From: Methanobrevibacter millerae
GTDB taxonomy: Archaea; Methanobacteriota; Methanobacteria; Methanobacteriales; Methanobacteriaceae
Length of the DNA stretch: 64,000 nt
Reading direction: 5' to 3'
Assembly: GCF_001477655.1 (NCBI RefSeq)
Contig: NZ_CP011266.1
Span: forward strand, 1,534,001 to 1,598,000
Shown in pieces: positions 1-12,039 of this stretch (position 1 is its first letter; each line of letters opens with the position of its first letter). A program made the translations under genes and the position numbers. The notes below the pieces were generated by a model. That model was not told the origin of the DNA. It ran no database searches and saw only the letters and a list, made by a program, of their open reading frames with translations.

Positions 1-1
1 A

Positions 2-451
2 TCAAATTTCCCTGGAAAAGTTATTCCAATCAAATTAGATGGTGCAAATTCAATCATTGGTCAGAAAAGATCATTTTTAGCTTCAGAAGATAGTGTAGAA
101 ATTGATATGTATTTCCAGAAAAACCTTGGAACTGGAATATTTGGTGGAGAAGGATTCATTCTTCAAAAATTCACTGGAAACGGAATGCTATTTTTAGAAA
201 TTGACGGTGAAGTAATTGAACGTTATTTAGAACCGGGAGAAGTATTGTTTGTAGACCAAGGACATATTGCTGCAATGGATGAGTCAATTGACTTTGACAT
301 CGAAAGGATAAAAGGTGCTAAAAATTGGTTATTCGGTGGCGAAGGAGTATTTTTTGCTAAATTAGTAGGACCTGGAAGAGTATGGGTACAAACCATGCCG
401 ATTACAAAATTAGCTCAAGCATTAATCCCTATGCTCCCTACAAAAAAATAA
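2..451 (+). CDS. AIM24 family protein, 5'-truncated
   Basis: The reading frame is open from the window edge, so the true start lies upstream; 149 residues are visible. The sequence has the glycine- and phenylalanine-rich beta-strand pattern of the AIM24/TIGR00266 family, with two similar segments containing GGEGF and GGEGV followed by KF/KL. This is typical of a trimeric beta-prism-like fold of unknown biochemical role. No membrane segment is visible. The gene converges on serS and ends at a hairpin terminator. Family assignment is fairly secure; function is unknown. Confidence 0.8.
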   Translation, partial: SNFPGKVIPIKLDGANSIIGQKRSFLASEDSVEIDMYFQKNLGTGIFGGEGFILQKFTGNGMLFLEIDGEVIERYLEPGEVLFVDQGHIAAMDESIDFDIERIKGAKNWLFGGEGVFFAKLVGPGRVWVQTMPITKLAQALIPMLPTKK

Positions 452-460
452 ATAAAAAAA

Positions 461-484
461 AGTTTATTTTCAATAAACTTTTTA
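461..484 (+). terminator. Hairpin terminator after AIM24 gene
   Basis: An 8-bp stem, AGTTTATT pairing with AATAAACT around a TTC loop, is followed by T-rich sequence (TTTTACTATTTTTT). It begins 10 bases after the stop codon. Confidence 0.7.
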
Positions 485-545
485 CTATTTTTTATAATTT
501 AAAAAATTAGTTAAAGTGTGTAAATACACACCAAAATTAAAAAAT

Positions 546-1823
546 CTATTTTTTAGCTTCAATAACTTTTTTTCCATTCATGTAAGGGACTAACACTTCA
601 GGAACTTTAACACTACCGTCAGCCTGCTGGTAGTTTTCTAAAATACAGCACATGGTTCTTTCTGTTGCAATAGCTGTACTGTTTAATGTGTGTAAAGTTT
701 GAGCATCTCCAGAACCTGCTCTTCCAATACGGGTTTTTGTTTTTCTTGCCTGATAATCTTTACAGTTGGTACAGGAAACCAATTCTCTGAATGCACCTGA
801 ACCAGGGAACCATGCTTCCAAATCATATTTAATAGCAGCATTATCATTTAAAGCAGATGATACGATAGCTATTATCTGATATGGAAGTCCTAATTTTTGA
901 TAGATTCTTTCAGTCACTTCCATCAAGTGGTCATGCTGGTTTCTTGAGTCTTCAGGTGCTGAATAGATAAACTGTTCTATCTTTTCAAACTGGTGGACTC
1001 TGAATATTCCTAATGTATCCTTTCCGTGTGAACCTGCTTCCTTTCTAAAACAGGTTGAAAGTGCACAATATCTTAAAGGCAAGTCTTCAGGTGAAATGAT
1101 TTCATTTCTGTGAAGTGCTGCCAAGGTTTGCTCAGCTGTTGCAATAAGATACATGTCCTCATTTTCCACTTTATATAAAGTCTCTTCAAACTCACCTAAT
1201 TCAGAGGTTTCTGCTGCAACTTCGCCTTTTACAAAGAATGGAGTTTGCATTGGAATATATCCTTCAGATTCAAGTTCAGATAATGCAAACTGAATTAATG
1301 CAAGGTTTAAATGCAATATATCTCTTTTCAAATAATAGAAACGTGCACCAGCAATGCTTGCTGCAGTTTCCAAATCTGCACCATCAATTTTATTAATTAA
1401 ATCAACGTGGTTTAACAATTCAAAATCATATTCTGGGATTTCACCATAGGTTCTCACAACGACATTATCGTCTTCAGTGTCTGATACAGGCACATCATCA
1501 TCTATGATGTTTCCTACCTTATACCTGTAGTCATCCCTAAGCTTGAGATACTCACTATTTTTAGCTGTTAATTCCTTAATTTCTGAAGCTACCTCTTTTG
1601 AACGTTGGATTACTTCTTCTAAATTACCTTCTTCTTTTGCTTTTTTGAATGATTTAGATAATTTATTTTTTTCAGATCTTAAAGAATTTAATTTTCTTTC
1701 ACCTTCTCTCCATAAGGTGTCATATTCTATAACTTTTTCAACATTTTCAGTATCTCTAAATCTTTTCTTCTCAGAGTCAATGATTAATTCCGGATTTTCT
1801 CTGAATAATTTTATATCTAACAA
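546..1823 (-). CDS. serS: Seryl-tRNA synthetase, canonical type
   Basis: Charges tRNA-Ser (and tRNA-Sec where present) with serine using ATP, in the cytoplasm. The 425 residues match the canonical family: an N-terminal antiparallel coiled coil (about 35-105), class II motif 2 near 258-282 (CFRKEAGSHGKDT...FRVHQFEK) and motif 3 near 378-402 (NSTAIATERT). The start is TTG, with GGGG about nine bases upstream; the product begins MLDIKLFREN as in homologues and an in-frame stop lies just upstream. This is the ordinary SerRS and not the divergent methanogen-type enzyme that, as I recall, Methanothermobacter carries. Confidence 0.96.
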   Translation of the reverse strand: MLDIKLFRENPELIIDSEKKRFRDTENVEKVIEYDTLWREGERKLNSLRSEKNKLSKSFKKAKEEGNLEEVIQRSKEVASEIKELTAKNSEYLKLRDDYRYKVGNIIDDDVPVSDTEDDNVVVRTYGEIPEYDFELLNHVDLINKIDGADLETAASIAGARFYYLKRDILHLNLALIQFALSELESEGYIPMQTPFFVKGEVAAETSELGEFEETLYKVENEDMYLIATAEQTLAALHRNEIISPEDLPLRYCALSTCFRKEAGSHGKDTLGIFRVHQFEKIEQFIYSAPEDSRNQHDHLMEVTERIYQKLGLPYQIIAIVSSALNDNAAIKYDLEAWFPGSGAFRELVSCTNCKDYQARKTKTRIGRAGSGDAQTLHTLNSTAIATERTMCCILENYQQADGSVKVPEVLVPYMNGKKVIEAKK

Positions 1824-1881
1824 TTTATGTCCCCATTAATATTTAATCAATATATAATTATGAATCTTTTATTTTTTAAAG

Positions 1882-2229
1882 TTAATCCTTAACTTCCCTA
1901 TTTATCATCATTCTTCTCATTTTAGTGTTGTCCAACAGTTTCAAATTATCATCAACATCATATTTTAAATCTGCAATTAGGTTGATTTCTTCATCCCATC
2001 CTTCTCTTTCCTGAGTTCTTATTTTTTCCCAGCGTTCAAAATCTTCTTTAACCGGAAGCCCATTCCTTTTAACATTTTCTAATGTATTAAAGAACTTAAA
2101 TTGAATATTTCCCCTTATTTCCATTAGCTTATCATATTCCTGCAGTAAATCATCAAGCTGATATGACATCAATCTAAACTTTTCACATTCAAGCTCCAAT
2201 TTTAAAGTATCCAAATCATCATTTGTCAT
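1882..2229 (-). CDS. Hypothetical coiled-coil protein
   Basis: A 115-residue charged protein rich in Glu, Lys, Asp and Leu with heptad-like spacing, no cysteine pair, no signal peptide and no membrane segment. It lies upstream of serS on the same strand with a 58-base gap. No convincing Shine-Dalgarno precedes the ATG, so it may be leaderless. I do not recognise the family. Confidence 0.6.
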   Translation of the reverse strand: MTNDDLDTLKLELECEKFRLMSYQLDDLLQEYDKLMEIRGNIQFKFFNTLENVKRNGLPVKEDFERWEKIRTQEREGWDEEINLIADLKYDVDDNLKLLDNTKMRRMMINREVKD

Positions 2230-2270
2230 GTTAGTTAATTTAGATTTAATTAGATATAAAAATTATTAAA

Positions 2271-2308
2271 AAAAGTGGTTTACAACTCCCGCCCACACCT
2301 AGCAGGAG
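2271..2308 (-). terminator. GC-rich 3' element after HxlR gene, possible terminator
   Basis: Just downstream of the HxlR stop, the minus-strand RNA can form CUCCUGC/GCGGGAG (2286-2308), or alternatively GUGG/CCAC placed directly before a run of seven U. The two foldings share bases and exclude each other. This GC-rich patch stands out from the AT-rich surroundings. Confidence 0.45.
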
Positions 2309-2321
2309 CAATTATTTTGAA

Positions 2322-2699
2322 TTATTTAAAAAGCAATTTATCTTTGAAACTGCGTTTCATCTTGCCTTTAGTTTCTTCATTGAATTTAGTATCACCAAGA
2401 TCTTCATCAATACTAAACATGGCCAACTCATAGACAATTTTATTCAATGCTTGACCTTTTTTGGTCAATATGTATTCAACATCACGTTCATATCGGTCTG
2501 ATATTCTTTTAATCAAACCGTCTTTTTCCATTGCCTTTAAGCAGTTGCTTAAAACTTTATTAGATAAATTTGGTTTTCCTTGCTTGAACTCTGAGAAACG
2601 GGATTTACCGAAAAATAAATCACGAAGAATTTCGATTACCCATTTCTTTTTGAACAATCGCACTACCAAATCGATTGGACATTTGCTATAGGTATTCAT
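2322..2699 (-). CDS. HxlR-family transcriptional regulator 1
   Basis: Winged-helix DNA-binding protein of about 125 residues. The ATG at 2699 is preferred over the in-frame ATG at 2723 because GGGAGG lies 8 bases before it. HxlR hallmarks are the N-terminal CPID (Cys7), KKWVIEILRDLFFG, the recognition segment KPNLSNKVLSNCLK and the wing. In family members such as HypR and YodB the N-terminal Cys senses electrophile or disulfide stress; that role here is inference. It is a close paralogue of the regulator at 6211 and is divergent from a precursor-peptide gene across a GTAAC/GTTAC inverted repeat, so it probably controls that gene and itself. Confidence 0.9.
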   Translation of the reverse strand: MNTYSKCPIDLVVRLFKKKWVIEILRDLFFGKSRFSEFKQGKPNLSNKVLSNCLKAMEKDGLIKRISDRYERDVEYILTKKGQALNKIVYELAMFSIDEDLGDTKFNEETKGKMKRSFKDKLLFK

Positions 2700-2765
2700 T
2701 TTCAATTTCCTCCCAGTAATCATATAGGCTTTTTTATCATATATAAAGTTATCGGTATTTTATAG

Positions 2766-2783
2766 AGTAACTAAAAAGTTACC
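2766..2783. promoter_or_regulatory. Inverted-repeat operator between HxlR1 and peptide 2
   Basis: GTAACT (2767-2772) and AGTTAC (2777-2782) form a perfect 6-bp inverted repeat with a 4-base A-rich spacer. It lies between divergent TATA-like boxes: TTTATATAA near 2791 for the plus-strand peptide gene, and TTTATATAT near 2740-2750 on the minus strand for HxlR1. The same half-sites recur upstream of the second HxlR/peptide pair at 6110-6159. Confidence 0.65.
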
Positions 2784-2867
2784 AAAAGAATTTATATAAT
2801 AATATCAGAAGTTTTAATTGAAAGTTTTAGTAAAATAGGACTTTCAAGTATTTAAGAGGTGAAAGAC

Positions 2868-3029
2868 ATGTATAAACTAAATTCTTGGAATGAAAAAGAA
2901 AAGTTTAATTCATCAGAGATTGCGCAAAACATGGTAAGTGGACCATGCGGCAGTGATGTTTCAACAAGCTGCTGTGTGGATACAACAAAAATCAGCACAA
3001 GCTGCTGTATTGACACTACAGAAATGTAG
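2868..3029 (+). CDS. Second precursor peptide, Cys-Cys repeat type
   Basis: A 53-residue ORF with a good GAGGTGA site 7 bases before the ATG. Its N-terminus shares KLNSWNE and SS-x-IAQN with the CGSD-repeat peptide at 5801-6028, so the first ~21 residues look like a common leader. The following core has CGSD once (Cys27) and then two 11-residue repeats, STSCCVDTTK and STSCCIDTTE (Cys35/36 and Cys46/47). It lacks a membrane segment. It is divergent from HxlR1 and convergent with the maturase operon. I infer a ribosomally made substrate of the neighbouring radical SAM enzyme; the modification is unknown. Confidence 0.8.
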   Translation: MYKLNSWNEKEKFNSSEIAQNMVSGPCGSDVSTSCCVDTTKISTSCCIDTTEM

Positions 3030-3038
3030 ATCAATTAA

Positions 3039-3149
3039 ATCAAAACAACACCAATATATCTCAACCCCTCCTCTAAATCATATATTCCCAAATAATCAAA
3101 AAAATGTTGTTTTGATAAACACGAAAGGGGATTTTAAATAATCCCCTTT
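3039..3149 (+). terminator. 3' structured region after peptide 2 with strong hairpin
   Basis: Two inverted repeats lie between convergent transcription units. ATCAAAACAACA (3039-3050) is fully complementary to TGTTGTTTTGAT (3105-3116). AAAGGGGATT (3124-3133) is fully complementary to AATCCCCTTT (3140-3149) with a 6-base loop. Neither strand has a clean T-run directly after the second hairpin, so it may act in 3'-end stability or as a shared convergent terminator. Confidence 0.55.
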
Positions 3150-3159
3150 AAAAAAATAA

Positions 3160-3765
3160 TTATAAGCGTTCAATATTTTGCATTGGACACTTTTCAAAGC
3201 ATCTTCCACAGTGAAGGCAGTTTTCCTGAGGAATACAATATTTTTCACCTTCAACAGGAACATTCTGAGGACATACTCCCTTACATATTCCGCAGGCAAC
3301 ACAATTATCCCCTATTACAAAACCTTTAGGAGTTATTTTAGCATTCCCTAATGTGAATGTTTTTCTAAAAATAGGCTTTTGTGTCAAATCAAAAAATTCC
3401 ATTTCAGCATTTTCAATGCAGAACGGCTCTAAAATATAACGGGATTCCCCAGGATATACATTATTCAAGAACTTATTTTCATCAAACATCAAATCAATCC
3501 AATATTTTTGGTCATCCAACTGATATGCTTCACCAGAGATACGAATTGACTTGTTATCCTTTAGTGAAAGATAGGAAACCTTCGGATGATTAATGATTTC
3601 ACGATACACATCCTTTCCGCGTCCTGTCAAAAAATATATTTTTTCATCTTCAATATGCATTATATCAATAATTCTGGATTGGGGATTTCCATTTTCATCA
3701 ACCGTTGATAAAACTGCATCTATTACATCTCTTAATTGGTTAAAACAATCTTCTTTTGTTATCAT
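3160..3765 (-). CDS. FMN-binding split-barrel / ferredoxin fusion protein
   Basis: A 201-residue fusion. Residues 1-135 resemble the pyridoxamine-5'-phosphate-oxidase-like split barrel (GNPQSRIIDIMHI..., IYFLTGRGKDVYREI...HPKVSYLSL), which usually binds FMN or F420. Residues 150-201 hold two [4Fe-4S] motifs, CVACGICKGVCP (C155-C165) and CLHCGRCFEKCP (C183-C193). It is probably a cytoplasmic flavin-dependent redox protein fed by its own ferredoxin domain. Its ATG overlaps the stop of the MDR gene by 4 bases, so translation is likely coupled. As the last gene of the precursor-maturase operon, it could reduce or activate the peptide or supply electrons to the radical SAM enzyme; that is inference. 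Confidence 0.82.
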   Translation of the reverse strand: MITKEDCFNQLRDVIDAVLSTVDENGNPQSRIIDIMHIEDEKIYFLTGRGKDVYREIINHPKVSYLSLKDNKSIRISGEAYQLDDQKYWIDLMFDENKFLNNVYPGESRYILEPFCIENAEMEFFDLTQKPIFRKTFTLGNAKITPKGFVIGDNCVACGICKGVCPQNVPVEGEKYCIPQENCLHCGRCFEKCPMQNIERL

Positions 3766-4724
3766 ATTAATCTGAATATTATTTTTCCTTGTGCATTGTT
3801 ACTTTCCATTAACAAATGAGCTTTTGGAATGTCTTCCAGTGATGTGAAAACTCTTCCAATAGCCGGTTTAATGTCATTAATGATTATAAAATCAAAAATC
3901 TCATCAATAATATCCTGAGTAGGAAAATTAGAAAAGAATGAAGTTACATATTTTTTATATAAATGTTTTATTGGATCAAATCCGTCCAAATATTCAATTC
4001 CACCTAAAATTCCTGTCACACAACAGATTCCATCTTCTTCAAGTAAATTCAGTGAATCAATTAATGTTTTAGGTCCGATTAACTCCAAAATCTTATTGCA
4101 TGAAATATAGCCTGACAAATCTCCATCATCAACAACACATTCATCTGCACCACAATTTTTAAGTTTTTCAAATCTGTTTTCATTTCTTGAAGTTGCTATT
4201 ATTTTACATCCTACTGCACTAGCCAGCTGTATTGCAGTCAATCCCGTAGCACTAGTTGCACCCCTTACAAGCAGAGTATCCTCTTTTTTCAAATTTAATG
4301 TTGAAATTGATCCATAAGAAGTAAAATAAGTTTCAGGGATAGATATTATTTCTTCAAGAGTTAAATTATCAAAGGCATAATCCGGAATTTTAAATACATT
4401 CTTTTTAGGAAGCAGCGCATATTCAGCATAGCTGCCATCAAATAACCTTCCCATACCACCCATTAAAGCAACGATTTTGTCTCCTTTGGATAAATCACTG
4501 TTGGATTCATCTGCAATTTCACCAACACATTCAATTCCCGGAACTACAGGTAAGTTAATGTAAGGCTCATCTGCCTCATAATCCCTTAAAATTACTTCTG
4601 AGCGATTGATTCCAAAACCTATGATTTTAACTAAAACCCAATCCTTTTTGACTTTAGGTATATCTATTTCACTTACTTTCAAATCCTGTGCTTTACATGT
4701 TTTTTTTAAAACAATTGCTTTCAT
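3762..4724 (-). CDS. MDR-family NAD(P)H oxidoreductase (quinone-reductase-like)
   Basis: A 320-residue medium-chain dehydrogenase/reductase. It has an N-terminal GroES-like domain (VVPGIECVGEI near residue 62), a Rossmann nucleotide site with GATSATGLTAIQLA near 159, and no structural-zinc Cys cluster, so the zinc-independent quinone oxidoreductase branch fits best. The ATG at 4724, giving MKAIVLK as in the family, is preferred over one 24 bases upstream because it lies two bases after the radical SAM stop and follows an AGGA-type site. Substrate is unknown. The operon position suggests an accessory redox step on the peptide, or handling of a small molecule linked to it. Confidence 0.85.
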   Translation of the reverse strand: MKAIVLKKTCKAQDLKVSEIDIPKVKKDWVLVKIIGFGINRSEVILRDYEADEPYINLPVVPGIECVGEIADESNSDLSKGDKIVALMGGMGRLFDGSYAEYALLPKKNVFKIPDYAFDNLTLEEIISIPETYFTSYGSISTLNLKKEDTLLVRGATSATGLTAIQLASAVGCKIIATSRNENRFEKLKNCGADECVVDDGDLSGYISCNKILELIGPKTLIDSLNLLEEDGICCVTGILGGIEYLDGFDPIKHLYKKYVTSFFSNFPTQDIIDEIFDFIIINDIKPAIGRVFTSLEDIPKAHLLMESNNAQGKIIFRLI

Positions 4725-4726
4725 TA

Positions 4727-5755
4727 TTATCCTACTTCCTTCCAACATTGTGGATCTGGTGAATACATATTATGAGTATATCCATAGCTTACTGCAGGAC
4801 AACCTCTGCAAAATCTCAGCAATTCACATTTGCTGCATTTTTCAAATTCTTCGAAACGGCGATATTCATTCATTTTATCTCCAGTGAATATATCAAATAT
4901 TCTCTCTGTTAATGCATTGCCCACTTTGCTGTCCATTCTGCGGCAGGCAAAGACATCACCTGTTGGAAGTATTGTCAAATGACTGTTTCCACAGTTACAG
5001 CCATCATAGATGACATCATCTTTTAAATTTTGAGGTATTTTAAAAATTCCCTTTTCATATAGGAACAATGTCCATAAGTGATCTTTTAAATTAAAAAAGG
5101 TATTAGAATCTTTATATTCCTGATATTTCTGCCAAACATCATCCAATAAATTTTTATATTCTTCAGGAGTCATTTGTGCTGTTTTTTCAAAACTGGTCGG
5201 ACAATATCTTGCAAAACTAAACAATCCAACATCATTTTTTACAGCCTCGTCAATAATGCCTGTTATCTCTGAGATATTTGTTTTGGAAACTGTTGTCATG
5301 ATGCTTGCTCTTACACCTGCATCCTGTAAGGTTTTAACAGCATTTAAAGTTGAATCAAAAGATCCTGGTTTTCTGAAATAGTCATGAGTTTCTCGAAGAC
5401 CATCCAAAGAAAGCTGATACTGTCTGCAGCCTAATTCATTCAATCGACTGCATACGTCAGGAGTTAAATGAAAAGGGTTTCCCATGATATTGTAATAAAG
5501 TTTTCTATCATGAAGAGTTTCAAGTAAATCCCAAAAGTTAGGATGTAAAATTGGATCTCCACCAGTAATGGAAAAATATGGTCTGCGATTTGTTTTTTCA
5601 CACATCTCCAAACAGTTATCTAAAACGTGCTCCATTTCATCATAGCTCATTGTTACCAGTTCTTTATTATTGTCCTCTGAAAAAATATAACAGTGCTTAC
5701 ACCTTTGATCACAATCATCAAGTATATGCCATTGAAAAGCAAAAAAATCAGCCAT
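4727..5755 (-). CDS. Radical SAM/SPASM peptide maturase, ACGX-system type
   Basis: A 342-residue enzyme expected to cleave S-adenosylmethionine and modify the adjacent Cys-repeat peptides. The radical SAM cluster motif is CDQRCKHC (C15, C19, C22), followed by SITGGDP near 62-68. The C-terminal SPASM region has C253, C255, C271, C307, C310, C316, C319 and C337, enough for two auxiliary [4Fe-4S] clusters. GGAGTGAT lies before the start. It follows the CGSD-repeat peptide by 45 bases and a terminator-like hairpin. From memory, protein-family collections contain an 'ACGX system' radical SAM paired with an ACGX-repeat peptide, and this pair fits that description. Chemistry (thioether, epimerisation or other) cannot be read from sequence. 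Confidence 0.9.
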   Translation of the reverse strand: MADFFAFQWHILDDCDQRCKHCYIFSEDNNKELVTMSYDEMEHVLDNCLEMCEKTNRRPYFSITGGDPILHPNFWDLLETLHDRKLYYNIMGNPFHLTPDVCSRLNELGCRQYQLSLDGLRETHDYFRKPGSFDSTLNAVKTLQDAGVRASIMTTVSKTNISEITGIIDEAVKNDVGLFSFARYCPTSFEKTAQMTPEEYKNLLDDVWQKYQEYKDSNTFFNLKDHLWTLFLYEKGIFKIPQNLKDDVIYDGCNCGNSHLTILPTGDVFACRRMDSKVGNALTERIFDIFTGDKMNEYRRFEEFEKCSKCELLRFCRGCPAVSYGYTHNMYSPDPQCWKEVG

Positions 5756-5783
5756 GAAATCACTCCAAAAAAAGAAATAAAAA

Positions 5784-5802
5784 AAGATTATTGAATAATC
5801 TT
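5784..5802 (-). terminator. Attenuating hairpin between precursor and maturase
   Basis: AAGATTATT pairs with AATAATCTT around a single base (in practice a 7-bp stem with a 5-base loop), overlapping the precursor stop codon. On the minus strand it is followed by TTTTTTTATTTCTTTTTTT, then the maturase ribosome site. A partial terminator here would make the precursor more abundant than the enzymes. Confidence 0.65.
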
Positions 5803-6028
5803 AGAATTTAATATCACTGCCACATGCAGTGTTAATGTCACTACCACAAGCAGAAGCAACAACATCACTACCACAAGCGGTATTAACATCAGAACCACAA
5901 GCAGTGTTAATGTCACTACCACAAGCAGAAGCTACAACATCGCTGCCACATGCGGTTGAAATTACATTTTGTGCAATTTTAGAACTAAAATATGTTTCAT
6001 TTTCATTCCATGAGTTCAATTTAAACAT
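5801..6028 (-). CDS. CGSD-repeat precursor peptide (ACGX-like)
   Basis: A 75-residue peptide with GGAG 8 bases before its ATG. Residues 1-21 (MFKLNSWNENE..., ending IAQN) look like a leader shared with the peptide at 2868. The core carries six CGSD motifs, with Cys at 27, 36, 44, 52, 61 and 69 (spacing 9, 8, 8, 9, 8). A 17-residue unit ACGSDVVASACGSDINT occurs twice, separated by ACGSDVNT, and the DNA shows the same tandem duplication, so the core grew by repeat expansion. It is first in the operon with the radical SAM, MDR and split-barrel/ferredoxin genes. I infer a multiply modified ribosomal peptide; function unknown. Confidence 0.88.
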   Translation of the reverse strand: MFKLNSWNENETYFSSKIAQNVISTACGSDVVASACGSDINTACGSDVNTACGSDVVASACGSDINTACGSDIKF

Positions 6029-6109
6029 ATAATTTTCTCCTTAATTTTTAAATAAAAGAATTTTTCTTTTATTAATTTTACTTTAATTTATTCAATTATA
6101 AATAAATTA

Positions 6110-6159
6110 AGTTACTTTAAAGTAACTATTAACCATTAAGTTACCTCTAAGTAACTTAA
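6110..6159. promoter_or_regulatory. Two palindromic operators between CGSD peptide and HxlR2
   Basis: Palindrome A (6110-6127) is a perfect 18-mer, AGTTAC-TTTAAA-GTAACT. Palindrome B has arms TTAAGTTAC (6136-6144) and GTAACTTAA (6151-6159) with a 6-base spacer. Their centres are 29 bases apart. A abuts the TATA-like TTTATAATTG of the minus-strand peptide operon (about 6092-6101); B lies just upstream of TATTTATAAA for HxlR2. One operator per promoter suits a self- and cross-regulating dimeric HxlR protein. Confidence 0.75.
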
Positions 6160-6210
6160 AATTAATAAACAAATATTTATAAAAATTTAATTAACAAAAG
6201 AGGCATTTAA

Positions 6211-6582
6211 ATGGAAAAAGAAGAAAAAGCATTAATATGTCCTATTGAAATAGCCATGGAACATATCAACAGAAAATGGGTTATCCAAATCATAAGGGAC
6301 ATGTTTTTTGGCAAAAAAAGATTCAATGAATTTAAGGAAGGAAAACCTAATCTTTCCAATAAGGTTTTAAGTAATTGTCTTAAGGAAATGGAAGAAAATG
6401 GTTTGATAACACGGAAAACTAATGGTGGAATAGAATATAAATTAACTGAAAAAGGTCTGGCTTTAAATAAAGTACTGTATGAATTGGCAATGTTTACCCT
6501 AAATACTGATATTAACAACAGATATTATGATGACGAAAATAAAAAAGAATTAAAAAAAGTTTTTAAAGAAATTTTATTATAA
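6211..6582 (+). CDS. HxlR-family transcriptional regulator 2
   Basis: A 123-residue winged-helix regulator and paralogue of the protein at 2322: both contain RKW/KKW-VI-x-I-x-RD-x-FFGK and the identical stretch KPNLSNKVLSNCLK. An N-terminal CPIE cysteine (Cys10) is conserved with regulator 1 and could be redox-sensitive. An AGAGG site precedes the ATG. It is transcribed divergently from the CGSD-peptide operon across two palindromes. Its 3' end overlaps the convergent ArsC-like gene by 6 bases. Confidence 0.92.
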   Translation: MEKEEKALICPIEIAMEHINRKWVIQIIRDMFFGKKRFNEFKEGKPNLSNKVLSNCLKEMEENGLITRKTNGGIEYKLTEKGLALNKVLYELAMFTLNTDINNRYYDDENKKELKKVFKEILL

Positions 6583-6927
6583 TAATTTCTCTTCCCATTC
6601 TTTAACTTTAAAACCTGTTAAAACAACATCATCACTAACAATTATTGGCCTTTTAACAAGCATACCATCTGTTGCAAGTAATTCTAGCTGTTCATCTTCA
6701 GACATATCAGGAAGTTTGTCTTTTAATTTCAATTCACGATATTTCATTCCACTGGTGTTGAAAAATCTTTTTAACGGTAATTCACTTTTTTCATACCATT
6801 CCTTTAATTCCTCAAAAGTAGGATTGTCTTCCACAATATCTTTTTCTGTGAATTCTAGATTATTTTCTTCCAACCATTTTTTAGCTTTTTTACAAGTTGA
6901 ACATCTTGGATAATGTACGAATAACAT
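6577..6927 (-). CDS. ArsC/Spx-like thioredoxin-fold protein
   Basis: A 116-residue member of the arsenate reductase C/Spx/YffB family. It has the N-terminal redox motif CSTC (MLFVHYPRCSTCKKA) and the late KRPIIV segment typical of the family. Such proteins reduce arsenate with thiols or act as redox regulators; YffB-like members have unclear substrates. No arsenic genes lie nearby, so an arsenate reductase role is only one possibility. Proximity to the redox-rich peptide locus may be coincidental. Confidence 0.85.
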   Translation of the reverse strand: MLFVHYPRCSTCKKAKKWLEENNLEFTEKDIVEDNPTFEELKEWYEKSELPLKRFFNTSGMKYRELKLKDKLPDMSEDEQLELLATDGMLVKRPIIVSDDVVLTGFKVKEWEEKLL

Positions 6928-6948
6928 AATATTTAATTGATTTTTAAA

Positions 6949-7608
6949 TTAAAAATAGTTAATGTTTAATGCATCACTTAACTGTGAAATATCATCAACA
7001 ACAGCTACAGGATAGTCATCATTATAAGCTTTTTCATCACCATATCCCCAAGTAACAATGATACAGTCCATTCCTGCATTTTTTGCAGTTGCAATATCTG
7101 TTTTTGAATCCCCAATATATATTGCTTCTTCTGTTTTAACATTAGCCATATCAAGAATCCTATTAACACCTATCGGACTTGGCTTTGAGGGATAATTTTC
7201 ATTATGCCCTTCAATCAAGAGAAAATCTATATCCTTGAGGAATTTATCCGTAAAATATTTAATTGAATCCGTTGTTCTGTTTGAATTGATTGCAAGCAAC
7301 ACGTTTTTATCCTGCAATTCTTCAAGCAAATTTCCAATTCCTTCAAAAGGAACACTGTTTTGCTTAGGTGATTCATCATATATTGGGATGTAAGTTTCCT
7401 TAACAGCTTCGATATTTTCCGGCGTGTTTTTGTCTTTTAAAACAAGGGAGACGATTTCATTAATGTTACCGCCCAATCTTTCAACATATTCACTGCTGGT
7501 CAATGTTGGAAAATCATGTGCTTTTAAAGCCTTGTTAAGACATATGACAACATCATCAACAGTGTCAACCAAAGTTCCATCAAAATCAAAAATATATAGC
7601 TTTTTCAT
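6949..7608 (-). CDS. HAD-superfamily phosphatase (phosphoglycolate phosphatase-like)
   Basis: A 219-residue cytoplasmic HAD hydrolase. Motif I is DFDGTLVDT (nucleophile Asp8, acid/base Asp10), motif III includes KPSPIG and motif IV is YIGDSKTDIATA. An alpha-helical cap between motifs I and II places it with the phosphoglycolate phosphatase-like group, but the substrate cannot be fixed. It starts 5 bases after the cfbC stop and is probably cotranscribed with it. Confidence 0.88.
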   Translation of the reverse strand: MKKLYIFDFDGTLVDTVDDVVICLNKALKAHDFPTLTSSEYVERLGGNINEIVSLVLKDKNTPENIEAVKETYIPIYDESPKQNSVPFEGIGNLLEELQDKNVLLAINSNRTTDSIKYFTDKFLKDIDFLLIEGHNENYPSKPSPIGVNRILDMANVKTEEAIYIGDSKTDIATAKNAGMDCIIVTWGYGDEKAYNDDYPVAVVDDISQLSDALNINYF

Positions 7609-7613
7609 GATAT

Positions 7614-8408
7614 CTAGATAAATGACTTGAAAAATTCCTCAAATTCCTCATCATCCATAGGTTCTGGAATTGAAATATTTTCATTATCCATAATATTTGA
7701 AGCAAGCTTTGAGTATTCACCAGCCTCTTCACTTTCAGGATATTTTTCTACAACAGTTTTTGCATCTAATTCAGCATCCTGAATAAGATTGCTTCTGTGA
7801 ATAGTACCAATAACATGAGTTCCTATTTTTTCTGCAAAAGCATTAACAATCTCCTCTTCATTTTCAACATTTCTGCAGTTGCAGATAATTCCGCTTAAAT
7901 TTCCCTTAAGCTTTTTAACACCCCTAACAATATTATTTGCCGCATAAAGTGACATGTATTCACCGGAAGTTACAATCAATACTTCATCAGCATAATTTTC
8001 ACGCAAAGGCACAGAAAAACCACCGCAAACAACATCACCCAATACATCATATACTACAACATCCAAATCCTCTTCAAAAATATCGAGTTTTTCAAGCCTT
8101 TTCATTGCAACGATTACACCACGTCCGGCACATCCAACACCAGGTTCTGGCCCTCCGCTTTCAACACATAATATATCCTTAAATCCTTTGAAAACCAAAT
8201 CATCCCTTTCAGGATTTCTATTATCCTTAAGCGTGTTAACTACAGTGGGAATTCTTTGACCATATAATGTACGTGTAGTGTCTGCTTTTGGATCACAACC
8301 AATGACCAGGCATTTTAAATCATCACTGGCCCATGTAGCAGACAAATTAGCTACAGTTGTACTTTTTCCTATTCCACCCTTTCCATAAATAGCTATTTTT
8401 TTAATCAT
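7614..8408 (-). CDS. cfbC: Ni-sirohydrochlorin a,c-diamide reductive cyclase, NifH-like subunit
   Basis: A 264-residue NifH-family ATPase. The P-loop is GKGGIGKST (residues 10-17), and Cys93 (VGCAGRG) and Cys128 (DVVCGGF) are the two subunit-bridging [4Fe-4S] ligands. In methanogens the class IV NifH homologue CfbC passes electrons to CfbD during coenzyme F430 synthesis. No nifD/nifK-like gene is in the window, so nitrogenase reductase is less likely though not formally excluded. The start overlaps the U32 gene stop by 4 bases. Confidence 0.85.
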   Translation of the reverse strand: MIKKIAIYGKGGIGKSTTVANLSATWASDDLKCLVIGCDPKADTTRTLYGQRIPTVVNTLKDNRNPERDDLVFKGFKDILCVESGGPEPGVGCAGRGVIVAMKRLEKLDIFEEDLDVVVYDVLGDVVCGGFSVPLRENYADEVLIVTSGEYMSLYAANNIVRGVKKLKGNLSGIICNCRNVENEEEIVNAFAEKIGTHVIGTIHRSNLIQDAELDAKTVVEKYPESEEAGEYSKLASNIMDNENISIPEPMDDEEFEEFFKSFI

Positions 8409-9652
8409 TGTTGTGACCTCTCTTTAAGTTTATAGACAAAATCATTTTTTCTAACTTTAGTAGGAATCAAAACACCTACATTTGAGTTTTTAGGAACTTC
8501 CTTAACATCTCGACCTTCAATCTGCATGGAATCTATGACATGAGTAACAGAACCCGTGGTTTCACCCTGAATCATTATCCTATCACCGATTTTCAATTCA
8601 TCCCAAACCCTAATCTCAGCAACACTGACCTTATTATAAAAATTGACCACCTGCCCAATGTCTTTTTTAATGTATTTAGATTGGTTGGTTTCGCTTGTCT
8701 CATATGGAACATTGAAATAAAATCCGGTGTCAAATCCACGATTGAAAACACTTTTTAACTCTTCCATCCATTTAGGATTTACTTCATATTCATCAGGATT
8801 ATTCAAATATAAATCAATAGCTTCACGATAAATTCCAGTTACCATCGCACCATAATCAGGACTGCGTGCCCTTCCTTCTATTTTAAATGAGCTTACACCA
8901 GTATCTATTAATTCAGGAATGTGCTCTATCATGCACATGTCTTTCGGTGAAAAAAAGTTAGTTCTATAAGTGTCATCATAGGATTTTGATATGACAAAAG
9001 ACTCTTCCGAAACATCTGAAGTATTTGAAACAGCATCATTTTGAGACTCTTCAAATGTTAATGTCCAATTTTTACGGCATGGCTGCAGGCAATCTCCACA
9101 ATTAGCGCTTCGGCCATATAGCCCATAGCTTAAAAAGCATCTGCCTGAAATTGCCATACACATTGCGCCATGAATAAAAATTTCAGTTTCAATAGGAGAT
9201 TTGTCTGTAATTTCAGCAATTTCATCAATTGACAATTCACGTGAAAGAATTGCTCTTTTAGCACCCAATTTATGTAATGTCTTTAAAGTATGGGAATTGG
9301 TAACGTTTTCCTGAACGCTAACATGGGCTTCAAGACCATGTGAAACAGCATCTTCTATTAGTCCAATATCAGATAAAATAAGTCCATCAATCTCTGATGA
9401 TGAAATGACATCCAAATTATTTTTTAGCTTTTCAATTTCAGATTCTTTCAAAATAATATTTGTGCAAAGATAAGTTTTAGCATCATAATCTGAAGCCATC
9501 TTTGCTATTTTAGATAAATCACTTAGAGAAAAATTTTTGGCATTAGCTCTCATATTGTATTCATCCAAGCCAAAGTATACTGCATCAGCACCATTTTCCA
9601 ATACAGCACGCATTGAGATGAAATTTCCAGCAGGAGCTAATAATTCTACCAT
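8405..9652 (-). CDS. U32 family protein (RlhA/TrhP-like)
   Basis: A 415-residue protein of peptidase family U32. It opens MVELLAPAGNFISMRAVLENGADAVYFG and carries the conserved cysteine patch GRCFLSYGLYGRSANCGDCLQPCRKNW, then FSPKDMC and FKIEGRARSP. Characterised members (RlhA, TrhP, UbiU/V) are iron-sulfur proteins for prephenate-dependent RNA hydroxylation or ubiquinone hydroxylation; the old name collagenase is misleading. The archaeal substrate is unknown. It sits between purF and cfbC with a 4-base overlap into cfbC. Confidence 0.85.
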   Translation of the reverse strand: MVELLAPAGNFISMRAVLENGADAVYFGLDEYNMRANAKNFSLSDLSKIAKMASDYDAKTYLCTNIILKESEIEKLKNNLDVISSSEIDGLILSDIGLIEDAVSHGLEAHVSVQENVTNSHTLKTLHKLGAKRAILSRELSIDEIAEITDKSPIETEIFIHGAMCMAISGRCFLSYGLYGRSANCGDCLQPCRKNWTLTFEESQNDAVSNTSDVSEESFVISKSYDDTYRTNFFSPKDMCMIEHIPELIDTGVSSFKIEGRARSPDYGAMVTGIYREAIDLYLNNPDEYEVNPKWMEELKSVFNRGFDTGFYFNVPYETSETNQSKYIKKDIGQVVNFYNKVSVAEIRVWDELKIGDRIMIQGETTGSVTHVIDSMQIEGRDVKEVPKNSNVGVLIPTKVRKNDFVYKLKERSQQ

Positions 9653-9660
9653 ATTAATCC

Positions 9661-11082
9661 TTAAGGTTTATAATAAGTTTCTGCTTCAATATCATCTGGA
9701 AGTTCAGTTGGATATTCTTCGTTAAGACATCCTAAACATAAATCTTCAGCAGGCATACCTATAGCATCTATAAGAGCATCCAAAGTGATATAACCTAAAG
9801 TATCAATGTCTAATTGCTCCTTAATTTCTTCAATGCTATAATTAGCAGCAATCAATTCTTTTTTAGTTGCCATTGCCACACCATAGAAACAAGGTGCAAC
9901 TACAGGAGGACATCCAACTAAAAAATGAATTTCAGCAGGTTCTGATTCTTTGACTAAATCAAGTAGTTTTTTAGATGTGGTTCCTCTAACAATACTATCA
10001 TCAATTAAAATTATTTTTTTACCTTTAATAGCTTCCTTAATAGGATTTAATTTAAGTCTAACAGCCAATTCACGTTCTTCCTGAGTTGGCATGATAAAAG
10101 TTCTTCCAACATACCTGTTTTTAATCAAACCTTCACCATAAGGAATTCCGGAAGCCCTTGAATAACCAATGGCTGCAGGAATTGATGAGTCAGGTACTGG
10201 AATTACAAAATCAGCATCAATAGGATATAACTTATGTAATTGTTCACCTATATTTAATCTGGTTTGATAAACATTAATACCATCAATGGTACTATCTGGC
10301 CTTGCAAAGTAAACATATTCAAACATGCAATGAGATAATCCGTAATCATCTGCAATTTCTAGCATATGGCTTTGAATTTCATCATCTTTAAAGTAAACAA
10401 CTTCACCAGGAACAATATCCCTAATGTATTTAGCATTTACAACATCAAATGCAACGGTTTCAGATGCTAAAATATAGTCATCAGCTTTTTTAGCAACTGC
10501 CAATGGTTTAATACCCATAGGATCACGAACACCATATAGTTCACCATTGACAAGAATGACTAATGCATAAGATCCAACAAGTTTTTTTGAAACGGCTTCA
10601 ATAGCATCAATGATGCTGTTTTTATTATCATAATATTCTTTTTTAAGCATATAACAAATTACTTCAGAATCAGTGTCTGATTTAAATTCATAACCCTCAG
10701 CAATCAGTTCATTTCTTAACTCACCAGAGTTAACAATATCCCCATTATGAGCCATAGCAATAAATCCATCATCAAAATCAGTGACAAAAGGCTGGGAATT
10801 TTCTAATCGAGATTGACCAGTTGTTGAATACCTAACATGACCAATAGCAATGTTTCCTTCAAGATTATGGATTTCATAATCTTTAAAGACATCAGTGATT
10901 AAACCCATGCCACAGTAATAATTCAATCCTTTTTCTGAATTGAAAGTTGCTATACCTGCAGATTCTTGACCTCTATGCTGTAAAGCATACAAACCATAAT
11001 AAACAAAAGAAGAAACATTCCTAGAAGTATCCTTAGAATGAATTCCCACTATACCACATTTATCTTCCATCTCACCTTGCAT
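9661..11082 (-). CDS. purF: Amidophosphoribosyltransferase
   Basis: Commits PRPP to purine synthesis by making 5-phosphoribosylamine from glutamine. The N-terminal nucleophile glutamine amidotransferase domain begins at CGIVG; a short propeptide must be removed. The PRTase loop reads IILIDDSIVRGTTSKK. Cysteines in HCMFEYVYFARPDS, APCFYG and LCLGCLNEEYPTEL match the [4Fe-4S]-type PurF. ATGs occur at 11082 (MQGEMEDKCG) and 11070 (MEDKCG). I chose 11082; the AGGTGAG before 11070 is almost abutting it, so 11070 is possible. Confidence 0.95.
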   Translation of the reverse strand: MQGEMEDKCGIVGIHSKDTSRNVSSFVYYGLYALQHRGQESAGIATFNSEKGLNYYCGMGLITDVFKDYEIHNLEGNIAIGHVRYSTTGQSRLENSQPFVTDFDDGFIAMAHNGDIVNSGELRNELIAEGYEFKSDTDSEVICYMLKKEYYDNKNSIIDAIEAVSKKLVGSYALVILVNGELYGVRDPMGIKPLAVAKKADDYILASETVAFDVVNAKYIRDIVPGEVVYFKDDEIQSHMLEIADDYGLSHCMFEYVYFARPDSTIDGINVYQTRLNIGEQLHKLYPIDADFVIPVPDSSIPAAIGYSRASGIPYGEGLIKNRYVGRTFIMPTQEERELAVRLKLNPIKEAIKGKKIILIDDSIVRGTTSKKLLDLVKESEPAEIHFLVGCPPVVAPCFYGVAMATKKELIAANYSIEEIKEQLDIDTLGYITLDALIDAIGMPAEDLCLGCLNEEYPTELPDDIEAETYYKP

Positions 11083-11151
11083 TTGCAAACACCATTTAAT
11101 TATCAATTATTATTTTTCTTCAACCTACTATAAATAATAATCTTTTTACTC

Positions 11152-12039
11152 CTAGAAATTCTCAAAAGTGTTTGGTAAATCATAATCATCCCGAACTTCC
11201 GGAGGCTTATTTGAATGTTTAGAAGATAATTCCTTGGTTAATTCATCTTTATTATCTTCAACAAAAATTAAAGCAGTTTTAATAATTTTTAACCAATCAA
11301 TAGCCAGATTTCTAGATTGAGCTGCTATAAAACCTTGTCCAACAAGTATATTATCAGGTCTGAACTTATTTGTAGCTATTACAATCTTTTCCTCATCAAC
11401 CAAATTCTGATTAAAAGTTTCTCTCCACAGTTCATCCAGCCTGTAAATTTCTAAAAAATCTTTAGTGTGGATATTTTCAAACCTATTTTTAAAATTTGTG
11501 AAATCTGATTTTAAATTGTCAATATCATCATGCAAATCCTTATTTTCCATTGACAATACTTCATTTTCCTTAATGAGCTTATTATAATCATCAAGTAAAT
11601 TATTATAGTTATGAGTAACTTTCAATAGTTTATTTTCCAAAGTATGAATATTAATTAAATTTAAAGAATAAGAAAGGGTAGACTTGATGATTGAATTCAA
11701 TATTTCCTTTTGTGCAAGTTCAATATTAATCTCTTCACTTTCAAAAAGGACATTGTTATAATCAAATAAGCCAATATGATTAAAATCTGTTTTTAAATCA
11801 TTGAATAGCATATTAAAATTATCATCTTGGCCATATCCACCAATAAGAATAATATCTGCACCTTCAGCTACTTTTTTAGCTATTTCAAAATCTGTGGTGG
11901 GAATTATAGATGAAACAACAATATTATAATCTTTTTCTAGCTGAACATTATTAACAGCCTTTGAAATCAAACCTGCAATGTCAAGGTTTGATACGATAAT
12001 TCTAACATCAATCTTTGAGTTATAATTGTTGTTTTCCAT
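11152..12039 (-). CDS. Hypothetical protein with central coiled coil
   Basis: A 295-residue protein; the ATG at 12039 is chosen because AGAGG precedes it by 8 bases. Residues 1-95 look like an alpha/beta domain (DVRIIVSNLDIAGLISKAV, ADIILIGGYGQDD) with a receiver or periplasmic-sensor flavour. Residues about 120-190 form a strong coiled coil. The C-terminal part has DNILVGQGFIAAQSRNLAIDWLKII. No membrane segment or signal peptide is seen. It begins 11 bases after galE on the same strand. I do not recognise a family. Confidence 0.75.
   Translation of the reverse strand: MENNNYNSKIDVRIIVSNLDIAGLISKAVNNVQLEKDYNIVVSSIIPTTDFEIAKKVAEGADIILIGGYGQDDNFNMLFNDLKTDFNHIGLFDYNNVLFESEEINIELAQKEILNSIIKSTLSYSLNLINIHTLENKLLKVTHNYNNLLDDYNKLIKENEVLSMENKDLHDDIDNLKSDFTNFKNRFENIHTKDFLEIYRLDELWRETFNQNLVDEEKIVIATNKFRPDNILVGQGFIAAQSRNLAIDWLKIIKTALIFVEDNKDELTKELSSKHSNKPPEVRDDYDLPNTFENF

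Follow-up and report, generated by a model that had tools for sequence, protein, structure and literature searches.

A probable second precursor peptide, with vicinal-cysteine core units, in the predicted ACGX radical SAM system of Methanobrevibacter

Can one radical SAM enzyme be guided by a conserved leader to two different cysteine-rich cores? A small open reading frame in Methanobrevibacter millerae, a rumen methane-producing archaeon, raises this question. The window analysed here is a stretch of 64,000 nucleotides (NZ_CP011266.1, positions 1,534,001 to 1,598,000 of the forward strand), and coordinates below are those of the window. In it, a 53-residue peptide with paired cysteines—the CC peptide—lies near a radical SAM gene (rSAM) and a peptide with CGSD repeats. 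We consider it probable that the CC peptide is a second precursor of the ACGX radical SAM RiPP system and a substrate of one leader-guided rSAM. As part of this same explanation, it would be a paralogue of the CGSD peptide confined to one clade, with a separate HxlR regulator and promoter and with structure in the 5' untranslated region of its mRNA. The genes concerned are as follows:

2322..2723, minus strand: HxlR-type regulator HxlR1, divergent from the CC peptide (Pfam HxlR, 67 bits)
2868..3029, plus strand: CC-type precursor peptide gene, 53 aa (sequence, genome search, orthologues in 9 further species, dN/dS)
3160..3765, minus strand: PNPOx-like flavin domain fused to a 2[4Fe-4S] ferredoxin (Pfam PNPOx_N and Fer4; absent in G063 and G091)
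3762..4727, minus strand: zinc-type medium-chain dehydrogenase/quinone oxidoreductase-like protein, MDR (Pfam ADH_zinc_N, 52 bits; ADH_N, 48 bits; the open reading frame as listed runs on to 4748)
4727..5755, minus strand: radical SAM/SPASM maturase, TIGR04340 rSAM_ACGX, the proposed shared enzyme (574 bits, cut-off 400)
5801..6028, minus strand: CGSD (ACGX-type) repeat precursor peptide, 75 aa (TIGR04341, 10.2 bits, cut-off 28)
6211..6582, plus strand: HxlR-type regulator HxlR2, divergent from the CGSD peptide (Pfam HxlR, 65 bits; conserved beside the cassette)

The MDR and flavin-ferredoxin genes lie 3' of the rSAM on the same strand, each peptide gene is divergent from its own HxlR-type gene, and the CC peptide gene and the rSAM gene belong to separate transcription units. 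Among the cassette proteins scanned with Pfam and NCBIfam profiles, no peptidase or transporter was recognised.

Is the small reading frame a gene at all? It runs from an ATG at 2868 to a TAG ending at 3029, 53 codons in all (translation MYKLNSWNEKEKFNSSEIAQNMVSGPCGSDVSTSCCVDTTKISTSCCIDTTEM), and a ribosome-binding-like GAGGTGA can be read 5' of it at 2856–2862. Same-locus orthologues in two near species are 79–81% identical, and dN/dS is about 0.12–0.14 among the three closest orthologues in the two comparisons that could be computed, the third giving saturated dS and no value. The CC peptide reading frame is therefore a selected coding gene, not a chance open reading frame. In a search of the whole genome, it matches two places: itself and the CGSD peptide, the latter with 58% identity over residues 1–47 (E = 9.3e-11), in agreement with the leader match reported in the first-pass annotation. 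Pfam and NCBIfam offered no meaningful family for the CC peptide; the CTB-bacteriocin family, at 14 bits against a cut-off of 32, was rejected. The parts of the gene, and a repeat beside it, are these:

2868..2930, plus strand: leader, residues 1–21, MYKLNSWNEKEKFNSSEIAQN (invariant residues in 10 species; leader profile)
2946..2957, plus strand: CGSD unit inside the CC peptide, residues 27–30 (kept in 9/10 orthologues; CGSN in G091)
2964..2987, plus strand: first TSCCVDTT unit, residues 33–40 (sequence, orthologue alignment, codon comparison)
2997..3020, plus strand: second TSCCIDTT unit, residues 44–51 (sequence, orthologue alignment, codon comparison)
3039..3116, plus strand: perfect 12-nt inverted repeat (3039–3050 / 3105–3116, 54 bases between) just 3' of the CC peptide, a possible 3' structure (window sequence)

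The core is mixed, with PCGSD (residues 26–30) first, then TSCCVDTT, and then TSCCIDTT. The first-pass annotation had described a switch from CGSD to two SCC(V/I)DTT repeats; both SCC units stand, but the PCGSD unit had been overlooked, and the switch is not a full one. The two types of unit align (xACGSDxx / xSCCIDTT) with equal Cys-x-x-Asp spacing, as read from the sequence. Across the ten intact CC peptides, T/S-S-C-C-[IV]-D-T-T is constant in every unit while the linkers drift, the SCC units number two or three, and nine members carry one PCGS(D/N) unit; in the tenth (G055), an intact gene encodes three SCC units but no PCG unit. With one PCG and two SCC units, the CC peptide core thus departs from the ACG repeats of the ACGX system, which the CGSD peptide does have. 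The shared leader with a core of TSCC(I/V)DTT units, usually together with one GPCGSD unit, is by its sequence a new, second class of predicted precursor, and its ten intact members bear out the earlier idea that a conserved leader with a changed core marks a substrate family.

How far does the leader itself belong to the ACGX type? Residues N5, W7, N8, E9, F13, I18, A19, and Q20 are invariant in the CC peptides of ten species, and IAQN corresponds locally to an (S/N/D/I)AQ/AR element in ACGX leaders. A profile made from six non-Methanobrevibacter leaders (Sporomusa, another member of the Bacillota, Labilibaculum, Treponema, and two Thermoplasmata) scores the Methanobrevibacter CC peptides at 9–19 bits, whereas 300 shuffled copies reach at most 4.1 bits; the weakest score, 9.1 bits, is that of the window's own CC peptide. 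By this measure, the CC peptides carry the family-type leader of the ACGX system. The keeping of the leader while the core changes fits a leader-guided enzyme that would tolerate core change. Leader and repeats are both conserved in related genomes—ten species—a conservation on which the first-pass annotation had staked its reading.

The neighbouring rSAM is TIGR04340, well above the cut-off in a profile search, and the locus therefore belongs to the predicted ACGX system, which the first-pass annotation had not recognised. Its next-best profile, SbtM (TIGR04082), scores 197.9 bits against a cut-off of 350, short of membership. The genome that contains the window has one TIGR04340 copy, and the CxxxCxxC motif and all SPASM-region cysteines of the enzyme are invariant in 95 homologues. 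Within the family Methanobacteriaceae, 33 of 138 genomes carry the enzyme, spread over 4 of 17 genera. From a scan of public genomes, 80 rSAM loci (at least 57% identity) were retained; they span Bacteroidota, Bacillota, Spirochaetota, Thermoplasmata, Elusimicrobia, and others. We counted cores in the upstream peptides at 74 rSAM loci, within the 700 bases before the enzyme—a count that includes the Methanobrevibacter CGSD peptides and excludes the CC peptides, which are located elsewhere—and found 450 of 498 cysteines followed by Gly and 418 preceded by Ala. No Cys-Cys core was seen among the upstream peptides of the other retrieved loci (74 loci); since their cores are of the C-G type, the Cys-Cys core is a clade-specific departure. 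The TIGR04341 precursor profile gave no match to the CC peptide and only a below-cut-off score for the CGSD peptide; a Prevotella-type neighbour peptide scores 69.9. Several side observations concern the wider family. Peptides before the rSAM at two Elusimicrobia group loci (L166, L176) have GCG-type, not ACG-type, repeats. A 174-kb record catalogued as a plasmid (NZ_CP118754, Methanosphaera sp. ISO3-F5; G116:C2) carries an ACGX cassette whose rSAM frame is interrupted. At G036:C1:539641 (L093 7639–8088), CGSD repeats change frame midway, through either an indel in the repeats or a sequencing error. Literature searched for ACGX and radical SAM yielded no experimental work on the ACGX system, and the M. 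millerae SM9 genome paper mentions neither radical SAM nor bacteriocins.

In which genomes does the CC peptide occur, and with which partners? Intact copies are found in ten species of one genus, Methanobrevibacter (G000, G039, G051, G052, G054, G055, G058, G063, G091, and G092), every one adjoining an HxlR1-like gene and mostly between serS and the cassette. All ten are in rSAM-bearing genomes, a co-occurrence with a chance of 2e-7 if genomes were independent; the compared genomes share ancestry and are mostly draft MAGs, which makes this value a guide only. Two genomes that lack the rSAM, G075 (98% complete) and G072 (83% complete), have only broken CC peptide copies, again at the HxlR1 locus. 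The G075 copy has lost its start codon and has a stop after the leader; that of G072 has a frameshift in the core. Beside both decayed copies, the promoter region and at least part of the HxlR1 gene persist. In G063 (94% complete), rSAM and CC peptide are both intact, and a search throughout the assembly found no ACGX peptide, MDR dehydrogenase, or flavin-ferredoxin. G091 (87% complete) has the CC peptide; the ACGX peptide and flavin-ferredoxin were not found there, and its dehydrogenase match is only remote.

Three independent kinds of evidence—the ten-of-ten co-occurrence, the decay in the two rSAM-less genomes, and the retention of rSAM with CC peptide in G063—show across genomes a dependence of the CC peptide on the rSAM. 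The comparison indicates that it needs the rSAM but neither the MDR nor the flavin-ferredoxin, with the catalysis itself predicted. Since all CC carriers have an ACGX rSAM and the window's genome has a single copy, one rSAM serving two cores is the simplest reading of this distribution. The earlier suggestion that one enzyme may accept two unlike cores is favoured as regards the enzyme, but the cores are less unlike than had been supposed, given the PCGS(D/N) unit kept in nine of ten members and the shared Cys-x-x-Asp spacing.

The enzyme tree groups G091 with G052:C29 (100/98) and places G063 apart, and the CC-only state therefore arose at least twice. A single dedicated CC-only enzyme clade is not supported by this tree, G063 lying away from the other two. 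Residue 236 of the rSAM, the only position changed in both CC-only lineages, is Gly in 98% of 92 homologues and Glu/Lys in G063 and G091; as a candidate specificity position it is too weak, being unchanged in G052:C29. In G052, the rSAM beside the intact CC peptide (L088 4172–5179, diverged) has an in-frame TAA just after CxxxCxxC, and a second, intact rSAM is present in that genome.

How might the CC peptide gene be controlled? The region 5' of it, and its counterpart at the CGSD peptide, contain the following:

2767..2782, plus strand: operator-like inverted repeat GTAAC-N6-GTTAC, between HxlR1 and the CC peptide (0.01 expected in window)
2791..2798, plus strand: TATA-box-like TTTATATA (TTATA invariant at the equivalent place in 11 species)
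2818..2847, plus strand: 12-bp hairpin, 5' untranslated region of the CC peptide (comparative folding and covariation)
6111..6155, no strand assigned: two GTTAC-N6-GTAAC operator-like repeats (6111–6126 and 6140–6155) between HxlR2 and the CGSD peptide (0.02 expected in window)

Sites similar to the repeat at 2767–2782 occur at the equivalent position in most relatives, and the GTWAC-N6-GTWAC type stands upstream of both peptides; these sites are likely to be HxlR operators. A further GTTAC-N6-GTAAC site (G000:C1:217891; L212 ~2891), flanked by a different HxlR gene and by a pair of genes for a macrodomain and a sirtuin-like protein, suggests an HxlR operator type in common. The hairpin begins about 20 bases after the TATA box and therefore presumably forms the extreme 5' end of the mRNA. 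It forms in 10/10 species and in the decayed G072 copy (11 sequences), with 97% of cells paired and four pairs changed on both sides; in this count the loops were cut to 4 nt and the structure was picked by eye from the same sequences, which favours paired cells. Its covariation score is 0.389, against 0.215 for shuffled alignments, 0 of 500 of which score as high, and sliding the partner destroys the signal. Its candidate roles include ones such as stability and translational control. A short hairpin is also found in the CGSD mRNA of several species, but its z-scores are mostly near zero and we do not claim a shared element. An Rfam search of positions 1–12000 of the window returned no match.

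What would the enzyme do to the CC peptide? In the mechanism that we propose, the genome's only TIGR04340 radical SAM/SPASM enzyme, whose gene lies 1.7 kb away, would read and dock the 21-residue leader. It would then modify cysteines of the core—the PCGSD unit and probably both TSCC(I/V)DTT units—with no need for the MDR dehydrogenase or the flavin-ferredoxin protein. We infer this binding and modification, as well as the reacting residues and the product. Since the closest characterised family by profile is SbtM, we tentatively, and by a narrow margin, favour oxidation of cysteine to 5-thiooxazole-like rings over thioether crosslinks. In the SbtM reaction, a Cys/Sec substrate loses four hydrogens and becomes a thiooxazole (PMC11002830), and multi-Cys 5-thiooxazole peptides that unrelated iron enzymes produce bind Cu(I) and can remain in the cell without a protease or exporter (PMC12538549, PMC12668002). 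If the product is of this kind, our leading guess is that it may be an intracellular metal- or redox-handling peptide and not an exported antibiotic, because the cassette has no recognised gene for a transporter or peptidase. A bolder version, which we rate as unlikely, has one archaeal rSAM convert both Cys-Gly and adjacent Cys-Cys units, the latter to an undescribed paired heterocycle or double crosslink, in a metal- or redox-handling peptide made from its own HxlR-controlled, hairpin-headed mRNA.

The reading of the CC peptide as a second rSAM substrate has points against it. The CC unit departs from the Cys-Gly pair that prevails in the other cores (450/498), so that the rSAM might act on PCGSD only, and G055, which has no such unit, carries the CGSD peptide as well; the rSAM beside the intact CC peptide in G052 has its in-frame stop, although a second copy is present; and peptide and enzyme are in separate transcription units. 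As to chemistry, it is possible, if somewhat doubtful, that the rSAM makes cysteine thioether crosslinks, as in sactipeptides or ranthipeptides, with an acceptor such as the Asp at +3 or the paired Thr of the CC unit. The Cys-x-x-Asp spacing common to CGSD and CCID units, the PDB sequence matches to SPASM enzymes such as SkfB, SuiB, and CteB, and the Cys-Thr links known in ranthipeptides (PMC11002830) would all suit such links, but some members of the family lack Asp/Glu at +3 (ACGEG, ACGSACGAG), and maturases of the thioether type have profile scores well under that of SbtM.

We regard as unlikely a restricted action in which the rSAM reads the leader and acts on PCGSD only, leaving the TSCC(I/V)DTT thiols free for metal or Fe-S binding or as a disulfide redox switch. 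PCG is accepted in other ACGX peptides (Methanosphaera PCGSE), one PCG unit is kept in 9/10 CC peptides, and vicinal cysteines with a downstream Asp could themselves ligate metal; yet G055 keeps an intact gene with three SCC and zero PCG units, and within the core nothing is more conserved than the SCC units. That the CC peptide, though derived from a precursor, no longer meets the enzyme and serves unmodified in regulation or metal buffering seems very unlikely to us: its own promoter, own HxlR gene, separate transcription unit, and different core would agree with this, but its leader is kept under selection, its copies are decayed in the two rSAM-less genomes, and G063 retains the rSAM with the CC peptide when the rest of the cassette is absent. 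A two-component product of CGSD and CC peptides, also raised by the first-pass annotation, is barely credible, for although both peptides are at one locus in 7/10 genomes counted on the enzyme tree, in most genomes the CGSD peptide is found alone, and in G063 and G091 the CC peptide is.

On the preferred reading, the CC peptide truly extends a predicted RiPP system, and the locus is a natural substrate swap: a single enzyme lineage is paired with two cores, some genomes have only the CC or only the CGSD peptide, and where the enzyme is missing the copies are decayed. Its 53- and 75-residue substrates make leader-guided core tolerance directly testable, and it offers an entry into the uncharacterised ACGX system, which is present also in rumen and gut Bacteroidota and Bacillota. 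The accessible literature describes no radical SAM-modified archaeal RiPP product; only lanthipeptides counted as experimentally validated before a 2025 paper (PMC12144867).

How does the locus compare with known systems? It shows the general RiPP arrangement, a leader and a variable repeated core beside a modifying enzyme; the constant pairing of both peptides that would mark a two-component lanthipeptide-like system is not found. Captophorins and bufferins resemble it in their Cys-Gly type repeats, their repeated Cys modification, and their lack of need for a protease or exporter (PMC12668002, PMC12538549), but their enzymes are iron oxygenases of the MNIO type, not radical SAM, and the resemblance is one of motif and idea only. 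Ranthipeptides and sactipeptides (CteB, SuiB, SkfB) share radical SAM/SPASM enzymes that act on Cys-rich precursors, as well as the PDB sequence matches; here, however, any crosslink is a prediction and the acceptor residue is not conserved. SbtM (TIGR04082, thio(seleno)oxazole-forming) is the next-best match over the whole rSAM at 198 bits, but the rSAM falls below the cut-off of 350 and lacks the first 195 profile positions, and no selenocysteine codon was recognised in the substrate. From the ACGX system (TIGR04340 plus TIGR04341) the locus differs in its second precursor, TSCC(I/V)DTT core, lack of a TIGR04341 match, and own HxlR gene; it shares with that system an enzyme above the curated cut-off, a precursor directly upstream, leader elements that recur across phyla, and the MDR and PNPOx-ferredoxin partners and HxlR-type genes that are often nearby.
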